Below, in pieces: positions 2,134 to 47,900 of a DNA stretch of 64,000 nt; position 1 is the stretch's first letter, and each line of letters opens with the position of its first letter. The DNA is from Eublepharis macularius (taxonomy: Eukaryota > Chordata > Lepidosauria > Squamata > Eublepharidae): the NCBI RefSeq assembly GCF_028583425.1, contig NC_072791.1:43469368-43533367 (forward strand), written 5' to 3'. The position numbers and the translations under genes are program-made. The notes below the pieces were generated by a model. It was not told the DNA's origin. It saw only the letters and a list, made by a program, of their open reading frames with translations, and did no database searches.

Positions 2134-3600
2134 TTTTCTTCTAATCACAATAAGTTTCTTTTTTTTAATTAATAAATTTTTATTGGATGGGTCAATATAT
2201 AGTCAGCTTAAAACACAAATATAATCCATTTCAATTCCCACAAATATATTTCCCCACCCCCTCCCCTCCCCCTTTTCGATGTTGACTTCCAACAGCACTC
2301 GAACCCCCCGCTATTAATATTACATTATTTCTATATTATAGAACCTTCATGCTCCTTACATTTCCAACACTTATTAGATAGCTGCTTATTAGCTATGGCT
2401 AATTTTTTCGGTGTTAAATACCATCTATATAACATTTTATAGCCATTCTCTCTAATACTTGTACATGTTGATATTTTTAACGTATTTTTCCACAATTGTT
2501 CCCATGCTTCCATCATTATTTCATTGTTACAGTTTATTGCCCGCTTTACCATTTGTACCTTGACTGTTTCATCTTCTGTGAACCATTTCAATAACAATTT
2601 ATACATTTTAGAAATTGCTTTATTACTATCTCCTAACAAAAGTTCCTCAAATCCTGAATTCTTAGTTCTAAAACCTGTCTTCCTTTGATCTGTGTCAAAT
2701 AGGTCTTTAATTTGTCTATATTGTAACCAACCATATTTAAATGGCAACTCCTCATTTGGTTTGAGTTTTACTTCCTTATCTTCTACTTCTGTTAAGTCCT
2801 TGAGGGTAAGCCATTCTTTTCCTTTATATTCTAGGTTTGGGTTGATCACCTCAGCTGGTATAATCCACAGTGGTTTCTTCTGATCTATATTTTTTTTGTA
2901 TTTTAGCCAAGTCAACAATAAATTTCTTCTCAGATAGTGGTGCTGAAACATTGCATCCATTTTGTACTTATCATACCACATATACGCATGCCATGCAAAA
3001 AGTCTGTTATAGCCTTCCAAAGTTAAGAATTTATGATTGGCTAAAGACACCCTTTCTTTTAACCAGACTAGACATATCTCCTCATGGTAAAGTCGAAGAT
3101 CAGGAAACTGCATTCCACCTCTTTCCTTAGCATCACAAAGTACTTTAATCTTTACTCTTGGTTTCTTCCCTGCCCACACAAATTCCGATATTTTCTTCTG
3201 TCATTTTTCAAATTGTTTTTTGTCTTTTATGATTGGTATTGTTTGCATTAGAAACATAATTCTAGGCAACACATTCATTTTAACTGTGGCAATCCGACCA
3301 AACCACAATAAGTTTAATTTATTCCATTTTATCATGTCTCTTTCAATTTGTGTCCAGACCTTTTCATAATTATTCTTGAATAGATCAATATTTTTAGCTG
3401 TCAGCTCTATTCCCAAATATTTAATCTTGTGTACCACTTCACAATTTGTTAATTCGCTCAGTTCCTGTTGCTTCTTCTTGGTCATATTCTTGTTTATTAT
3501 TTTTGACTTCTTTTTGTTTATAAAAAAAGCCTGCCAAATCTCCAGATTCCTTAATTTTATGCAGTAGTCTTGTATTTTCTTCTAATCACAATAAGTTTCT
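2134..3600 (-). mobile_element. 5'-truncated L1 LINE insertion with TSD
   Basis: A minus-strand L1 insertion. It is flanked by a perfect direct repeat of up to 26 bp (2134-2159 and 3575-3600), which includes T-rich bases of the insertion site. A poly(T) run at about 2159-2166 is the poly(A) tail on the other strand. The body reads as the C-terminal part of L1 ORF2 and then a short G-rich 3' UTR ending in AATAAAAATTTAT. An intact TSD and a mostly open reading frame point to a fairly recent insertion. It lies upstream of the ISM2 exons. Confidence 0.9.
2331..3485 (-). pseudogene. L1 ORF2 protein C-terminal fragment
   Basis: About 380 codons of the post-RT part of an L1 ORF2 protein. Visible L1 hallmarks are KIKYLGIELT, a tryptophan-rich stretch with LLWFGRIATVKMNVLPRI, WAGKKPRVK, MLYRWYLTPKKLA and the zinc-knuckle start CWKCKEHEG. 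One in-frame TGA near 3200 interrupts the frame where L1 proteins usually have Trp (FEK-W-QKK), consistent with a single TGG to TGA change. The usual residues after the CWKC knuckle are missing, so the last codons and part of the 3' UTR were lost. EN and most of the RT domain were never inserted. It has no host function. Confidence 0.88.
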
Positions 3601-34195: not shown

Positions 34196-36030
34196 TAGGT
34201 TCACAGAATCTGCTTTGCTGTCAGATGGCCATCTAGCCTCTGCTTAAAAACCTCCAAAGGAGGAGAGTCCACCACCTCCCAAGGAAGCCTGTTCCACTGA
34301 GGGACTGTTCTTTTAGGAAGTTCTTCCTAATGTTTAGCTGAAAACTCTCTTGATTTAATTTCAACCTGTTGGTTCTGGTCCAACCTTCTGGGGCAACAGA
34401 AAACAACTCTGCATCATCCTCTATATGACAGCCCTTCAAGTACTTGAAGATGGTCATCATATCACTTCTCAGTCGTCTCCTCTCCTGGCTAAACATACCA
34501 AACTCCTTCAACCTTTCCTCATAGGATTTGGTCTCCAGACCTTTCACCATCTTTGTTGCCCTCCTCCGGACTTGCTCCAGCTTGTCTATATCCTTCTTAA
34601 GTTGTGGTGCCCAAAATTGAACACAGTACTCCAGGTGAGGTCTAACCAGAGCAGAGAGATACCATCACTTCTCGTGATCTGGACACTATACTTCTGTTGA
34701 TATAGCCTAAAATCACATTTGCCTTTTTAGCTACCACACCACATTGCCAACTCATGTTCAGTATATGGTCTACTAAGTCCCCTAAATCCTTTTCACACAT
34801 ACTTCTGCCAAGACAAGTCTCCCACATCCTATCATTATGCATTTGATTTTTCCTACCTAAATGCAGAACTTTACATTTATCCCTGTTGAATATTTATTTT
34901 ATTTGTTTTAGCCCAGTTTTCCAGCCTGTCAAGATCATCCTATCTTCAACCATATTTGCTACCCTTTCCAACTTAGTATCGTCTGCAAATTTAATAAGCA
35001 TTCCTTCTATTCCTTCATCCAAATCATTTAAAAAATATTGAACAGAACAGGTCCCAGGACTGATCCCCGAGGCACTCCACTTGTCACTGTTCTCCAAGAG
35101 GATGAGGAACCATTAACAAGCACTCTCTGGGTGCCATCTATCAACCAATTACAGATCTACCTAACAGTAATAGGATCCAAATCACATTTTACCAACTTGT
35201 CAACAAGGATATTATGGGAAGCCTTACTGAAATCAGGATAAACTATGTCTACAGCATTCTCCTGATCCAGCAACGTAGTAACTTTCTCAAAAAAGATACA
35301 AGGTTAGTCTGACATAACTTGTTTTTGAGAAACCCATGTTGGCTCTTAGTAATCACAGCCATCCTTTCTAAATGCTCAAGGACTGACTGATGATTTGTTT
35401 TAAAACTTTTCCAGGTATAGACGTCAAGAAGATGGGCCAGTAGTTACCTGGATCCTTTTCCCCCTTCTTGAAGATGAGGACAGCATTTGCCTGCCTCCTA
35501 TCTTCTGGCATCTCAAAATTGATGGACAGAGGCTCAGAAATTACATCCGCGAGTTCTTTTAGTACCCTTGGGTGCAATTCATCTGGCCCTGAGGATTTCG
35601 TTTCAATTAAAGAAACTAAGTGTTTATATACTGCCCCATTCCAATCCTAGGCTGTAGCTTCCTTCTTCCATCACGTGTTCTGTTATTGATATGTTGAGCA
35701 CCATCTCCCTCGCAGGAGAAGACTGAGGAAAAGTAGGAATTGAGCAGTTCTGCCCTTTCTTCATCACCTGTTACAATTTCACTTTCTGTCCCTGCAGTGG
35801 GCCTTCCATGTCCTTGCTCTCTTTCTTACTTTTAACATAAGCAAAGAACCCCTTTTTGAATCAATGAATGCAGTTCATCTGTCTTACTAACTCTAGGCAA
35901 AGTCCAAGCCATTTTTTCCTGTTTTCCTTTGGAACTCTTAGTCTTGCTTTGCTCCATTCCTTAGCAATGTCAAACTCTCACCCAAGACTTAATAGAGATC
36001 TGCTGCAGCAGCTGGGCAATTTTAGTTAAC
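34196..36030 (-). mobile_element. CR1 LINE, long antisense copy
   Basis: Minus-strand translation gives CR1 ORF2 RT pieces in order: [120 protein letters not shown] and FKYLKGCHIEDDAELFS. Many frameshifts and stops make it inactive. It covers most of the RT domain through to near the 3' end and lies between ISM2 and AHSA1. Boundaries approximate. Confidence 0.9.
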
Positions 36031-38925: not shown

Positions 38926-41900
38926 CTAGAAAAGCCAGAATAAACTGTCAGATCAGTAACATGGTACTGGTTTCGTCAAGGGCAGAACTGATGCTACCCA
39001 CTCTGCCTTATGAACTAGTTTGTTAGTGGCAAGTAGTAATTATAAAATTGGCTTTAAAATTATAAAATTGGCTCTGTAATATTTGATTGTCTTTTGTATG
39101 TTCTGTACATTGTAAGCCACTTTGGGCCTGTATTGTATGGAAAAAGCAAGGTAAAAGTTTCCTAAACAGATAAATAAACAAACCAAAAGAAGAGCAATGA
39201 GACAAGTCAACTTCTTTCCTTACATAGCAGGAGAATTCTACTCTTCATCACCATGAACTCAGCAAAGCAGCTGGAAAAAAAACCCTCAATTCTTCACTAA
39301 CTTTCACCTTAAGCATTCATTATCCTCTCAGGAAGTCAGAAGAGATTACTAGTACTGAATATGGATGATAATCATTTCCCCTCACATTAAGGGAACACAC
39401 AGTACAAGATAATGGCTTGCAGATCAGCTGAGAAGCCTTGTACTTCCTACTATCTTATTCAAGAGTAGATAGCCTAAGACAGCCAGATGTGCAGCTAAAA
39501 CCAAGATGGCTTCTTGTTGTACACAAGTGAATTACTTACCCTCGGGCCATGACTTAAATCTCCATTTCATAGCAATCTGTTTCTCAGGAACCTGAAAAAG
39601 TAGGAAAGTTATCTATTTACCAGGCAGATTCCCGCTTTGCACACTAAAGAGAAGGACAGAAATCATACTGGAAAATGCTTGGGATATTACTATTTAGATA
39701 AAAGTAACACAAATACATGCTCCTGTTTTAGGAAATATAAGTAAAAGCATGAGATGCTCACCAGCTGCTTTTACTTGAAACTACAATAAGAAGCTAATCT
39801 ATGATCCTATGTGGAGTTACTCCAGACTAGGCTCACAAATTTCACTTGACACTAGTTTTCTCCTATAACAAATCACCAAGGATTGTTGGATCTTAATGCA
39901 GTTCCATTTACACAACACACTGCACAATAGCCACTTAAAAATCAAGCTTTTGTATTTCATTTTCAATTAGAGGAAGAGAAAGGCAAAAGGGGGGTGGGGG
40001 GACAAGATCTAAGACTGAAGAGAAAAGCCAATATGGCAATATTAGAATGTAGCAGAGCATGCCTGTTACTAGACTGCTCTCCCTGAAAGCAGGAACAGAA
40101 CTAAGGAGAGGGTGTCCCGTGCATCAGACAGGAAGAAGAAGAACAAACGGTTCATGAGGCAGATGGGAAGGCACTTCAGGCAATACACAAACCAACTGCT
40201 GTTGGTACTCACCAGTTCAGTGAACTCGCCAGTCACACTGCCATCGAGTAGCTGGAATTTTCCTCCTTTATCAGCCTCTATGACAGCAGGCGAGTGAGTA
40301 AAAGCCTGCACCATCTGCAATAAAAAATGAGCTAATCAGCCTAGTATCAAGGTGAGTCCTTGCACTACGTAAATCATGACTTCCAGCTCATTAGCTGAAC
40401 CAACAGCTCCAATTACTGGGATAGCTGTTTTGATTCCAGTGTTCCAGAATGCTGACCTTCATTCCTGCGTCCCATTAGAGACTCTGGAGAAGACAGCTGC
40501 CATTTCAAGGACGGACAAAGCAAAGGATGCACCTTCTAAACCATCAGCTCTGAGGAGAAATTACTTGTGGCAGACAACTATAGGAATACATATGACCCTT
40601 CCACAGTATGCAGTGGATCAATATTCATTGATATTCTTGGAAGGTGTGGAGTCGGTTTCGTTTTCTCAGCCATGCCGGACGCTCCTCTCGGCTGGTCCGG
40701 GAGGAAACGACCGGGCACCCTGACCGGGCGGCTGATCTGCAAGGATTAGCCCCCAGGACTCCCAGGGAGGGAGCCAGGGTCCGGGACGCGGCGGGAAGAA
40801 CTCCCCGAAATCAATGCGGGGAGGGAATTGCCCGTTTGTCCCTATGGAGGCCGGCAGATGTGCGCAGCGCCTCGAGTGCCGCCGGGCAACGAGAAACGGC
40901 AAGTAAAAGAAACAGGCGGAAGCCTGTAAACAAGCGAATCCCTTCTGTTCTACAAGCGTTTGTGAAGGAGAGGTTGATCTGAAGAAGACTCGCTCTTCCC
41001 CTTCGTGGAGTTCCGGAATTTTGTTGCCCCCCCCCCCCAAAATGGCAGCAAAGAAGCAAAGTCCCGCTCTCGGTAAGTCAATCTCGGCCACCTTGCAGAA
41101 AGGGGAGTCGCTCGAAAAATTGGTGCGCAGGGCGGTGGTGGAAGCTATAAAACCCTTTGTTGACAAGCTGAACGAAACTGATCAAAGGGTGGGCTTAATT
41201 GAAAGCGAGGTGAAAACCATTAAGGCAGCAGCGGGGGGGGGCAGAAAAGTCTGCTCTGGAAAGTGCGTCACTTGTGAAGGCTACAAAAAAGGAGTTGAAG
41301 TTGGTGGAGAACCAACTGATCGGGCTACAAGTGGAACGAACGCAGACAATTTTGCGTCTCCAAAACGTGAAAGAGGAGGAAAATGAGGATCTGTGGGATT
41401 TGGTCTCGGAACTACTGGCGACACCCGCGAGGACGACTAAAGAAGAGGTTAAAAGCGCCATTTTGGAGGTCCGTCGGGCTTCTTCAAAATATGCAACAAA
41501 GCGACAGTTGCCTCGTGAGATCATTATTGACTTTTCAACTAAAAAGATTAGGGACACCATCCTATATAACTCATACAATGCGGATTTGGACTTTATGGGT
41601 TTGAAAGTCAAGATTTTGAAGGACGTTCCATTTCTAGTCCGGAAACGGCGTTTTAAATATAAAAAGTTTGCAGCTCTTCTGAGGGACCATGGAATAAAGT
41701 ACAAATGGTTATTCCCGGAAGGAATATGGTTCAGATATAAAGATCAGGCCTATAAGATATTATCAGAAGATCAACTAAAGGATTTTGAGAATAAAAACCC
41801 AGAATTCTGCTGCACCAAGAACGAAGAAAAGGAGGAGCCGGAGGGGGGGGGGGAAGAGGAGAGCATTGCAACAGCAGTTGCACAGAGAGAATTGCGTCCG

Positions 41901-44900
41901 GGACCCAGAAGGGGGAGGAAAGTTTAATCAGAATTTGAAATGTTTATTCTCTGTATGATTAACCACTCCATCATTATTCTATGGAGCTATTTTTGTATTA
42001 TGACAGTATGAAGGGAAACATTGAAGTGTAGTGTTTAGTGTTTGTAGTTCATTCCCCCCCCCCTTTTTCTTTTTCCACTCCCCTTTGTCCCTTCCCTCTT
42101 CCCTTTCCTTGTGATAGTCTGGTGTAGTGTTTTGTAGTTATGAAAAATAAAAAAATTTATAAAAAAAAAAAAGATATTCTTGGAAGGTGTGATGTTATCT
42201 GGATTGTACGGAAGTGTAATAGTGACTACTTAAGTGAAGGCACAAATGGGACGAGGGATGGTTTGAGGGACTGATTGAGTAAGCCAGTAAGTATGGGAGA
42301 AATAGTAATTTGCATGTGGAGTATTGAAGGTTGCAAAAATTAGCACTAAGTGAAGAGTATGAAGAGTCTATGTTGGTGTGCATAGAGAGTCTGCCAGAAT
42401 GTTTCTGTCAACCTGGTATATTTAATAACTGCCACACTTTATTCTTGTTATGTAAATCGGCCAAATAACATTTGGTTCAATCATAAAGTTTCCTCAGAAT
42501 TACTGAATCAAATATAAGGAAGGTGGCAACAGTTTTAACCGTCAAAGGTTTAAAGAGCCAGAAACCAAAGAGTACACAGCCAGAGTATGGCAGAGCTGGT
42601 GGTGGTGGAGGTGGTGGGGAGACTGTGGAATACAAAAGCATCCTTAGGATAGATAAACACCCTGAAGCGCCTATAACTGAGGTCCAGGAAGGCGAGATTC
42701 AGACAATGACTAAAGGGAGGGGGGAGGTTTATTGCATTCAGTATTCCGTAAGTGACAGGCTATGCAGCAGCAGGTGATGATCAGGGGGGTAGGAACATTC
42801 TGAAATTAGGAAGGGGTTCTGTCACAGGTGGTAGGGAAGGAAAGAAATCCTTCTCCTGAGCTATGAAAGGGAAGATTTTACTACATGGGGCTAATCTACT
42901 CCTGCTGCAGAAAGCAGGCTGCCAGTTTCTCTGTGTCTAGGACAGTAAAAGGGGCATTGAAGACACACATGGAAGAAATGGTCTCCTGCAGCTAGGAGAT
43001 ACTTCTTGCTAAATCTGTTCTGAGAAGATGCCAAAAGTGCTGAGCAAAGATTGTTGCACCACAAGATACACATTAGCTGACTTACCTCCTGCATAATGAA
43101 TACTCTGTATAGCTCATCTGGGGATGTTAAGAAGACTTCTTTTAAACTTATCTTACAGGTAGGAATCTTGACTCCTACAGATTTAGATTTAAGTGCATTG
43201 CCACTGCCAGCAGCAGGTTCAGAGGCCTAGAGAAACATCAAAATGCATCTTAATTGCCATAGCACTGTCACAATGCAGTACCCCCCATTTAGGGGCCAGC
43301 TACAAATCCTCCATTTGCAGGCAGGTGCCACATTCCCTGCAGCTACCATGAGAGCAAGACAGAAACTTACAGCCACAGTTTCTCCTCACCCTACCATTCA
43401 CCAATTCTCAAGACAATTACAATGGCACGCAAGCTTCTGCAGTTTGAGATGTCTGCATTAGTTACGCTACTTAAAGAAACTGGATTAATCTCTAATCACA
43501 CACATGCCTAGAAACACTGTTTACTGCTCAGTGGTACTTCATGTGCTGTTTTGCTCAGGTGCAACCACAGAGTGTTTTACATGTTCATATAAAAAATTTA
43601 ACATCATGAACACATTTGTAAATGCATGTATTAGACTGGTGTGCAAGCCAAAAGGCTGAGACTGGTAGGTCTGCTGCCACACAGGTGGGTGTGAAGTAGC
43701 TGTTTGTTTTATTACTTCAAAGAAAGGTAATGTTATACTGTAAAACATATTTATTCAGGCTTTCAAATTCAACTTATCTTTAAATAAGGGCCTGTATCCA
43801 ATCATATAGCTCCAAAAATAGAAGTGCCCTCAGGTTTTCTTAAAAGATGACAACAGTGTCTGATTCCCTCCTTCTGCTGCAGCTTGTTCAGCCTCCCTCC
43901 GCCCAACCCATTTTGTTCCAGAGGGATCCACTGACAATCTATACCACAGAGGCAATCTGTGGTGGGGGGGAAGGGGAATTGGTGAAAATTGCCAGCCCCT
44001 CTTTAAGAAACCCCGTAAGATTTCAGAATGCGGTGGGAAATAAGTCCATATGCATCCAGAAACTGGTTTGCTAACCTTGTGTTCATCAGGTTTACGCACA
44101 GGAAGAGGGGTTGGCTCTGACTGTTCTCCATTCACTGTGGGCAAGATCATGCCTTGGGTGAATTCTGAAAAGACATGGAAATCTGACTTAGATTCTTTGT
44201 GTGGAATAGTAAGATCTTAATTAATCCATGTTTCTTTTATAAGCACCGTTGCTACTGTACATCACTAGGAAAGCAGGACTTCATGAAAACCAAGATAAAT
44301 ATAAAGCAGGAATTCATGAAAACTGGGATTAGAATAAAAATTGCCAAGTGATTATATACTAAAATGAGATGAGAAAGCTATCTCCAGGGCATAACACCAT
44401 TTCAGGTTTGTAATCTGAAGAATTATCCAACACCAGAAGAGAGCACTGAGATAGTTCTGTTGCTCCAGGGCAGGTAAGGCATGAACTAGAGGACCTGCTA
44501 CCCCCCAGAAGCAGAATAGGTTACTTGATCTGCATATGCAACTCACCCTTCAACACAGTCTATATGTTCAAACCATGCAGTCTGACACAGATTGCATTCA
44601 TAGAGTTAAATCAACCTAAATTCCTTAAGAATTTGACATAAAACTTTATGACTCTTCCAAGTTAGACATGCAGACAATTCTGTATTGTCAATAAAGACAA
44701 AGTTAGATCCCCTAATGAGAAGAAATAACTACTCCCAAAGGATAATAGCACTAGCAAACAGGGCGAGATGGGCGATAAATGTTCAGCCCTTACCCCTGAA
44801 TGGAGTCTGACCCATAACTAGTCCTAAAGAGAAGTGCTCATGAACAGGCACATCCTCTTCCCACACTCGTAAGGCAGCAGTAGCAGCACTCCTTACAGGA

Positions 44901-47900
44901 GCCCCAATATAGTGCAGTGTAGTGCATTTAGATGAAAAGTAGTTTCCTGCACTAGAACGCGATTTTACTTAGTTGCTCTCTACCATTTCAGGTTTCACTG
45001 GCACATGCTGATCTCTGAACTGTTTTCACAAAATCACAGAGTTGGAAGGGGCCATACAGACCTTCTAGTCCAACCCTCTGCCCAATGCAGGATGAGCCTA
45101 AAGCATCTCTGACAAATATTCATCCAGCCTCTTCATGAAAACTGCCAGTGAAGGGGAGCTCATCACCTCCCTAGGCAGCTGATTCCACCTTTGAACTACT
45201 CTGACCATGAAAAAGTTTTTCCTAATATCCAGCCGGTACCTTTCTGCGTGTAATTTAAGCCTGTTGCTTCGAGTCCTATCCTCTGCTGCCCACTGGAACA
45301 GCTCCTTGCTCTCCTCCAAATGACAGCCTTTCAAATACTTAAAGAGAGCAATCAGTCCCCCCTCAATCTCATCTTTTCCAAACTAAACATTCCCAAGGTT
45401 CTCAGCCTTTCCTCGTAGGGCTGTCTCCAGACTCCCTGATCATCCTCGTCGCTCTCTTCTGCACTCTCGATTTTGTCCACATCCTTTTTGAAGTGAGGCC
45501 TCAGAACTGCACACAGTACTCCAGGTGAGGCCTGACCAAGGCAGTATAGAGAGGGACTATGACCTCCTGCGATTTTGACGCTATGGCCCCTTTGATACAA
45601 CCCAAAACTGAGTTTGTCTTTTTTGCCACTGCATCACACTGACTGCTCATATTTAGTTTACAGTCCACTCTTATAGTCCTTTAAAGAAGATGGGAAGGTA
45701 TCAAGGAAAACTACTTAAGGTGCTGAAGACAGCCTGAAGAACCATTTATTTGGTCTTCGAACACTTGAGAAAAATTGTCCCAAACAAACATATTCTCTCA
45801 GAGGTAGATACTGAAACTATTATCTGTCCTCCATTTGAAAGCTAATGAAGAAATCTCCAGAAAGAGGTCTCTGTTGTTTCTCGGACTCTATGCAAACCTG
45901 TTTTGAGAGTGCTGATATAAGTTTCCAAAGCACTGCTGATCTTTTTCACACCTTCTTTTTTCATCAAAGTTAGCAGGTTGGTGTCTGGCTCATCTTTGGC
46001 AAGACTAACAGTTATCTAAAAAGAAAGGAAAAAAACTTTTAAGATCCTGACAGACACACACACACAATTTTAAATGCCTCATTTAAAATCTTAGCTAGTA
46101 CTACAAATTACTACCAAAATGCCTGTAACCGTCATATTGTATTTCCTCAGCTTAAGCTCAGAAAAAAGGAATGTAATCTTTTTAAATGAATACCAAACAG
46201 CTTACCAGGTAAATGCCTGAATGTCAGAAATGTACATTCTATCTGATGTTTTAAGTATGCGCGCCTATGTGCTACCCGTGCTTCAAGTATGATCCTAGTG
46301 GGTAGTTCTATGTTGTCTTATGTCAGTTCTAGAATTGCTTATGCTCTGTTTCAGCATTTCTTCAGCTCTGTGTGGGATTCTTGCTAATCCTGTATCTTTG
46401 TAAACTTGTATTTATTTAGCCTATGGCATTGTTTATGGAAATATCCTTGATATTTATTGTACTTATCTCACACTATGAAGTCCACCTTGAGTCTCAGTGA
46501 GACTAGTACTCCATTGAGTCCAGTATTCTGGACAAACAGCCAGAATACTGCCAACCAGTATTCACAAACAGCCAACCAGTTATCCTGAGGACCAATACTA
46601 GGGCATAGAGGCCAAGGCCTTCACTTGATATTGCCTCCTAGCACTGGTGTTCGAAGGCTTACTTCCTCTTAATGTGAATGTTCCCATTAGTTTCCATGAC
46701 CAGTTGCCATGAATCTGTCAAATACCCTTTTACAGCTATAAGATCTTCACTGTTACTATAAAACATGGAATTATTCAGCACTGTGGTCCAATAAAGTAGC
46801 AGTCACCAATACTATCTGTACTTACCTCAATGTCATCAATATCATTTTCATCTGAAAGATTGGGAATTTCCACGTGCCCCTTATACTTCACACCTGTGTT
46901 TGAGATGCCTGTAGACAGCAACATACTAATTAAATTAAGGCTTGTTTCTATTTTACTTGCTTAAAATCAACTCTTGGCAGATTTTGACATCTTGAAACTG
47001 CAAAATGATCATTCTCTCAAACTTTTTTCTAATTCTTTGGAAAAAAATTAGAAGGAATTCTTCTTTGAGACAATTCACTATCCTGCATGAGAATTCTTGA
47101 ATGAGTGAAACCAGAACAGCCAACTCACCTGTCCAAGCTAGCTTGATGTTCCACTCATAGAAGAAAATTAGTTTTCCTTTGCGGTTATTTATGGAGGCCT
47201 CTCCATCCAGCTTACTCACTTCTGTCACTTCACAAGACCCCTCTTCATTCTCTGCTCTAACAGCCAGAAACAGGGTTTTCAGTTTCTCTGATGACCAATT
47301 AGATGCATCTCTTTCAGTCCTAAGAAGAGAAAATATCTCAAACTGAAAGGTCAGTAGAACACAGTCAGTCAACTTTCCACCTTTCTGCGCTGTAAAATAT
47401 TTTACACACACATCCTTTATCCCACTGAGCTTAGTTGTCTAAACATGGCTTGAAAAGTGACACCTTCCAAACTGAATTTTTAGGAAACCTTCCTGTCATA
47501 TATTTAGAAGATAGTGATCAAGATTATTAAGTATACTTTACCTAGCACACCCAAACTCAATCATGTACAATCCAAGTCAAACAGAGTTGAGTGGCCAAAT
47601 CAGATTCACCCCCCATTTCTAGTCACACAATTCCTCCACATTTACTTCAGTTCCCACCACTCTGTCAAGTAATTAAATCAAGGCAGGGATGTCTCTTTTA
47701 TATACAGGCTGGATCTAAGCATAGCTAAGAATCCTTGCCACTTTTACTCCTGATATACCAAAATTCCCTCCTGTATCTATTGGCGTTACAGCATTACAGG
47801 CAAAAAGCAGCCAGGCAACAAGGAGCTGGCTTGAGCAGTAAGGCAGGCAGAGACCACTTATTTAGAAATAATTTCTAACAATCTGTCAGAAGGGAATATA

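Follow-up and report, generated by a model that had tools for sequence, protein, structure and literature searches.

A recently amplified, ORF2-less HAL1-like family with a selected ORF1 in a probably squamate genome

The window analysed here, a stretch of 64,000 nucleotides of DNA, contains a complete ORF2-less L1-type insertion (40649-42172), which is very probably a copy of a recently amplified HAL1-like ("half-L1") family using its own ORF1 protein (ORF1p) together with L1 ORF2p in trans. HAL1 as a kind has already been described from mammals, for which Bao and Jurka (2010) is reportedly the reference; here it appears as a fresh family in what is probably a squamate genome. A young family with selected source copies in such a genome would make the loss of ORF2 with retention of ORF1 a repeatable, stable lifestyle of L1 relatives, and one can use such young copies to ask whether ORF1p acts solely on its own RNA, and whether it needs to match its partner ORF2p.

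The layout is given in Table 1. The first-pass annotation had described a complete insertion with a perfect 19-bp target-site duplication (TSD), a CpG-rich leader, a 3'UTR and poly(A), and all of these stand. The leader has 60% GC and a CpG observed/expected ratio of 0.87, the corresponding values for the whole window being 43% and 0.25. The ORF1-like frame that it also reported is indeed an L1-type ORF1, with its start codon at 41042 and its stop codon at 41925-41927, but in the window copy this frame is broken by the first G run. An AHSA1 exon (40213-40314; E 3e-12) and the Aha1_N exon of the same gene (47121-47315) both lie on the minus strand; the element therefore sits, as had been annotated, in an AHSA1 intron, and in antisense orientation. 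Rfam gave no match in 40600-42200.

Table 1. Coordinates of the element's features in the window.
Feature	Position	Strand	Remarks
Target-site duplication, 5' copy	40630..40648	+	GATATTCTTGGAAGGTGTG, 19 bp, same as 3' copy
CpG-rich 5' leader, putative Pol II promoter	40649..41041	+	Promoter role inferred
ORF1, N-terminal part	41042..41232	+	dN/dS 0.136, subfamily A vs B
G9 run breaking the ORF1 frame in the window copy	41233..41241	+	Length differs among copies
ORF1, RRM and C-terminal domain, L1 ORF1p type	41241..41927	+	dN/dS 0.12
Second G run	41843..41853	+	Length selects among three short C-terminal ends
3'UTR	41928..42160	+	AATAAA near 42146
A tail	42161..42172	+	
Target-site duplication, 3' copy	42173..42191	+	GATATTCTTGGAAGGTGTG, 19 bp, same as 5' copy

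As in HAL1, the element is predicted to encode an L1-type ORF1p. The C-terminal 228 aa matched Pfam PF02994 with an E-value of 0.0022, which is below the curated cut-off; against L1 ORF1p in the PDB, the single ORF1 sequence gave E 6e-4 and a profile of five ORF1 sequences E 4e-10. AlphaFold, given the C-terminal part as a single sequence, returned a model of low confidence (mean pLDDT 41.6), which was used for no reading.

A one-off deletion or a spliced L1 template had been named by the annotation as the simpler alternative, to be checked by searching the same genome with the junction between the ORF1 stop and the 3'UTR. Two such searches of the window's own genome returned 1143 and 1377 first-look candidates, and the best 40 scored in each were all (40/40) at a printed identity of 100%. 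The element was present in every one of the 38 loci read, 32 of which begin within its first 1-4 bases, and a TSD was found at 37. Since the junction is common to very many near-identical copies, nearly all with their own TSD, a private deletion or single spliced copy is refuted, and we leave it next to no chance; the proposed HAL1-like family is borne out. A search with the leader agrees: 39 of the 40 scored places share a single score over 301 bp (printed identity 100%), and among the matches listed 21 of the 40 could be paired with a junction match, always at a spacing of 1.03-1.25 kb and never at L1 length. Three of the other 19 leader matches were checked, and the junction was present in all three.

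The family has spread very recently to many sites of the genome, and the annotation was right to call the element young. Pairwise divergence among 32 copies of subfamily A averages 0.73% (range 0.07-1.6%), although these loci were chosen for reading by best match, so that the youth of the subfamily is overstated to some degree. In the youngest group of L1s read, four copies differ by 14-30 of 800 bases, which is more than the A copies differ among themselves.

The ends of the copies carry the marks of L1-type insertion seen in HAL1, namely poly(A) tails, TSDs (median 18 bp) and an L1-like target motif, T[T/C]|AARA, the end repeats being common strings of 15-22 bp. Under the HAL1-like reading, the CpG-rich leader would give rise to a Pol II-type RNA encoding only an L1-type ORF1p, an RNA-binding chaperone, which would bind its own RNA in cis; L1 ORF2p from elsewhere would then nick the target at this motif and copy the poly(A) RNA in trans by target-primed reverse transcription. 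That L1 lends the ORF2p is suggested by the target motif and by how abundant L1 is in this genome, where a search gave 34228 first-look candidates and scored 135; no donor was identified among the L1s read, whose youngest group is more diverged than subfamily A. CR1, BovB and L2 are given as the abundant squamate LINEs in the available part of PMC6050309, and a donor of another APE type (RTE/BovB, CR1 or L2) might be considered; A tails, end strings and target sites of L1 type speak against it, and the resident L1 target sites resemble those of the element, albeit in a small sample of four usable among 30 loci, one of them being the window's own L1 (about 2150-3600, minus strand). We regard such a donor as highly improbable.

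Beyond what the first-pass annotation had covered, the family was seen to comprise at least two subfamilies, with part of another, and its ORF1 to be under purifying selection and distant from the ORF1s of the resident L1s read. Subfamily B (five copies) has the same ORF2-less layout as A, and so does subfamily C, represented by a single, older copy of which the 3' half was seen.

One should also keep in mind that ORF1 could be a mere passenger, the element moving like a processed pseudogene with L1 ORF1p and ORF2p while its own ORF1p has no role. G-run frameshifts are many: in 18 of the 32 A copies read from the 5' end the start codon opens a frame of 294-305 aa, and such a long frame is absent from the other 14 (the window copy among them) and from all five B copies, mostly because of G-run length. 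The first G run is mostly G8 across copies, G11 also being seen, and these two lengths are read through. Against the passenger reading, dN/dS between A and B is 0.12-0.14 for the two parts of ORF1, computed over 150 non-independent pairs per part with dS at 0.54-0.73, as opposed to 0.86-3.0 in wrong-frame controls, and we conclude that the predicted protein has been kept by purifying selection. Variants common to several A copies are also mostly synonymous (six synonymous, two nonsynonymous and no stop, with 29% synonymous expected; p 0.009). Singleton variants (11 synonymous, 11 nonsynonymous, one stop) have a weak synonymous excess (p 0.06), and the difference between shared and singleton variants within A is not significant (p 0.24). 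A passenger ORF1 is accordingly quite improbable, if marginally less so than a donor other than L1.

The annotation had seen nothing of ORF2, and this holds for the family: five ORF2 fragments of resident L1s gave no match to the element below E 0.3, and no ORF2 match was found in the element and four B copies. The absence of ORF2 is thus a family trait, as in HAL1, and the element lacks the ORF2 with EN and RT that defines an autonomous L1. The resident L1s (that of the window and other loci) share with the element the ORF1p fold, an A-rich target, a TSD and an A tail, but they possess ORF2, and in the six L1 loci with a readable ORF1 this is just 27-35% identical to that of the element. No similarity was found between the element's leader and the resident L1 leaders, nor, in the comparison that the annotation had recommended, between its 3'UTR and those of the L1s read in the same genome. 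Derivation of the 3'UTR from a resident L1 was considered and rejected; likeness is confined to the very end, and was given no weight because AATAAA- and A-rich sequence is too simple.

Instead, a full-length L1 that carries this ORF1 might still be alive and be the recurrent source of ORF2-less copies, made each time by splicing or deletion at one and the same junction, with selection acting in the parent. Such a source would likewise give a single junction and a selected ORF1, and a rare parent could escape searches that scored the best matches alone; none was found among the best 40-150 matches scored per search. Spliced L1 insertions (SpIREs) are known in human, and the available part of PMC5860796 describes them as L1-derived, shortened and moved by L1, but as losing parts of the 5'UTR and ORF1 and generally being dead ends, whereas the present element keeps leader and ORF1 and its family multiplies. 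Every leader-junction pair found is HAL1-sized, the L1 ORF1s read are distant, and the junction looks old rather than newly remade, as A and B have sequence in common some 35 bases past the ORF1 stop despite 3'UTRs that are about 37% diverged. We consider recurrent production from a living parent unlikely. One locus (L063), taken up as a possible L1 with a HAL1-type ORF1, proved on reading to hold a HAL1 copy of its own, with unrelated flanking sequence and an L1 in antisense orientation after it.

Returning to a HAL1-like family with its own ORF1p, we tentatively suggest, at slightly less than an even chance, an old, self-perpetuating ORF1-only lineage that has been without ORF2 since before the A/B split and was re-amplified very recently. 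Its ORF1p would be about 29% identical to that of the L1s lending ORF2p, making chaperone and reverse transcriptase long-term heterologous partners.

Mammalian HAL1, in the available parts of PMC5753468, PMC3627910, PMC5322556, PMC4859970 and PMC8535693, has ORF1 alone, a poly(A) tail, TSDs and a reliance on L1 RT/EN; it arose several times (PMC5753468), and in guinea pig ORF1 coding was retained for about 29-44 Myr (PMC3627910). The present element is alike in having ORF1 alone, a poly(A) tail and TSDs, its reliance on L1 RT/EN being presumed and its ORF1 coding likewise long kept, and differs in its probably squamate host and in the distance of its ORF1 from those of the resident L1s read; its origin would be independent of mammalian HAL1. 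No reptile HAL1 appeared in the titles or abstract openings of the literature matches listed, though an entry in Repbase or Dfam only is possible. Lastly, one HAL1-B copy (locus L056) lies inside an L1 ORF2.

We found the window copy to be a 1524-bp insertion between two identical repeats, and the perfect 19-bp target-site duplication (TSD), CpG-rich leader, and 3′ UTR with poly(A) described in the first-pass annotation are all present (see table). The absence of ORF2 also holds, with five ORF2 fragments from resident L1s (L1s of the same genome that have ORF2) giving nothing below E 0.3 against the element. The ORF1-like frame is there, but in the window copy it is interrupted at the first of two G runs. 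Because an AHSA1 exon and an Aha1_N exon flank the element, its site is within an intron of AHSA1, as had been proposed, and its orientation is opposite to that of the gene. Two nearby CR1-like fragments were recognized by eye and have no Pfam match at E 0.01.

Features of the window copy and its surroundings (window positions)
Feature	Position	Strand	Details
L1, 5′-truncated	about 2150-3600	minus	ORF2 C-terminal part; 26-bp direct repeat at ends
CR1-like reverse transcriptase, C-terminal fragment	34236-34664	minus	
AHSA1 exon	40213-40314	minus	E 3e-12
19-bp repeat, first	40630-40648		
Leader	40649-41041		60% GC, CpG o/e 0.87 (window 43%, 0.25)
ORF1	41042-41927		
First G run (G9)	41233-41241		within ORF1
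Second G run	41843-41853		within ORF1
AATAAA	near 42146		followed by short A tail
19-bp repeat, second	42173-42191		
CR1-like reverse transcriptase, C-terminal fragment	45101-45633	minus	
Aha1_N exon	47121-47315	minus	

The element belongs to a family. The junction of ORF1 stop and 3′ UTR, suggested earlier as the query, gave 1143 first-look candidates in the genome from which the window comes (2.24 Gb in 72 contigs), and a second, overlapping query gave 1377; for each, the best 40 were scored and all 40 were 100% identical. First-look figures, here and below, are loose and should not be taken as copy counts. We read 38 loci, eight from the first query and 30 from the second (L016 being the window copy), and the element is present in every one, with 32 starting at its first 1–4 bases and six 5′-truncated. 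Three of the truncated copies (L003, L024, and L036) start at element base 552–553 (window about 41200) and have different end repeats; their common start may be a truncation hot spot or a second transcript start.

A search with the leader drew 589 candidates; among the best 40, which were scored, the 39 matches besides the window copy have one score over 301 bp. A downstream junction match, among the 80 listed, pairs with 21 of the 40, always 1.03–1.25 kb away, and no pair at 1.25 to 12 kb occurs among the matches listed; three of the other 19 were checked, and the junction is present in all three. The ORF1 protein query (20684 candidates, best 150 scored) returned matches that are all 98–100% identical, 147 of them lacking an internal stop, though best-match samples favour young, intact copies.

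Direct repeats of at least 12 bp bound 37 of the 38 loci (15–22 bp, median 18, measured as the longest common string at the ends, which may include tail As), and none of that length was found at L022. The insertion-site consensus of the loci read, T[T/C]|AARA, is like the target of the L1 endonuclease. Within the subfamily of the window copy (A), 32 copies differ by a mean of 0.73% (range 0.07–1.6%), and each lies 0.07–1.06% from the column majority (window copy, 0.53%); the A copies read are very young, in a sample biased to young copies.

A query with a copy of a second, older subfamily (B), from locus L056, gave 4961 candidates; of the best 40 scored, the other 39 are at 97–98% identity. 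The five B copies read (L056 and L075–L078) are 79–83% identical to A and have ORF1 and no ORF2. All share the start base of A except L078, which is alignable only from element base 234. End repeats are 14–18 bp in L075–L077, and none were found for L078 or for L056, where the locus stops within the element. At about L056 position 2452, the B copy sits within ORF2 of an L1. A third HAL1 subfamily (C), also older, is represented by a 3′ part at locus L063 (1–491); it is 85% identical to B and 75% to A, and likewise terminates in a 3′ UTR and A tail. Because AACCACTCCATCA, a short stretch about 35 bases past the ORF1 stop, is common to A and B despite an overall 3′ UTR divergence of about 37%, ORF2 was most likely lost before these subfamilies split.

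Over its C-terminal 228 aa, ORF1 matches Pfam PF02994 (L1 ORF1p) at E 0.0022, under the curated cut-off; PDB 2ldy, 2ykp, and 2yko match its RRM and C-terminal domains (E 6e-4 to 9e-4), a five-fragment profile matches L1 ORF1p at E 4e-10, and the N-terminal part alone has no L1 family match. Both G runs vary in length among near-identical copies, altering the frame and C-terminus. Of the 31 A copies in which the first run could be read, 19 are in frame there, as are none of five B copies, and a frame of at least 290 aa, counted from the start codon, occurs in 18/32 A and 0/5 B copies. The simplest reading is slippage during copying, with slippage during expression a possibility.

ORF1 has been under selection. 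In comparisons of 30 A copies (all but L012 and L022) with the five B copies, dN/dS is 0.136 in the N-terminal part (dS 0.54) and 0.120 in the RRM-CTD part (dS 0.73), and the +1 and +2 readings of the same stretch give 0.86–3.0, a large contrast, although the 150 pairs are non-independent. Mean dN over mean dS is 0.16 within A (435 pairs) and 0.34 within B (10 pairs). Variants found in at least two A copies comprise six synonymous, two nonsynonymous, and no stop (expected synonymous 29%, p 0.009), and singletons 11, 11, and one (p 0.06); shared and singleton variants within A do not differ significantly (p 0.24). From dN/dS and the variant pattern, therefore, ORF1p has been needed, and on this reading the need would fall in the period when the elements were without ORF2, as has likewise been argued for guinea-pig HAL1 (PMC3627910).

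HAL1 is a kind already known, with ORF1 only and several origins in mammals (PMC5753468), an A tail, TSDs, and dependence on L1 (PMC5322556); the ORF1-only layout, the tail, and the TSDs are common to our element. What is newly found is one more HAL1-like family, probably of independent origin, whose ORF1 is unusually distant. A genome screen for full-length L1 and HAL1 included the anole (PMC5322556), and the literature matches listed include no reptile HAL1. L1-driven retrotransposition of a Pol II transcript in cultured cells required ORF1p as well as ORF2p (PMC2666806); an ORF1-only element would supply ORF1p itself and borrow ORF2p, with the leader promoter, ORF1p cis-binding, and L1 ORF2p as partner all putative.

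The ORF2 end of the window L1 gave 34228 candidates, of which the best 135 were scored. Among 37 L1 loci examined, ORF1 is readable in six (L069, L071–L074, and L083), at 27–35% identity to the HAL1-like ORF1, and L056 and L063 each carry a separate HAL1-like insertion. The comparison with resident L1s that the first-pass annotation had called for gave no match of element DNA to L069–L074 at E 1e-5 and nothing better than E 0.05 to L083/L084. Neither a parent L1 nor a present ORF2p donor was pinned down among the L1s read. The nearest L1 pairs among 36 loci are at least 1.6% apart, within the youngest group encountered, four copies show 14–30 differences per 800 bases, and the other 39 scored matches in the search for that group are at 97–98%; by these distances, the L1s read predate A. 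Mammals usually have a single L1 lineage; here, in contrast, L069, L071, and L074 differ from the other L1 loci by 12–15% in ORF2, as coexisting groups.
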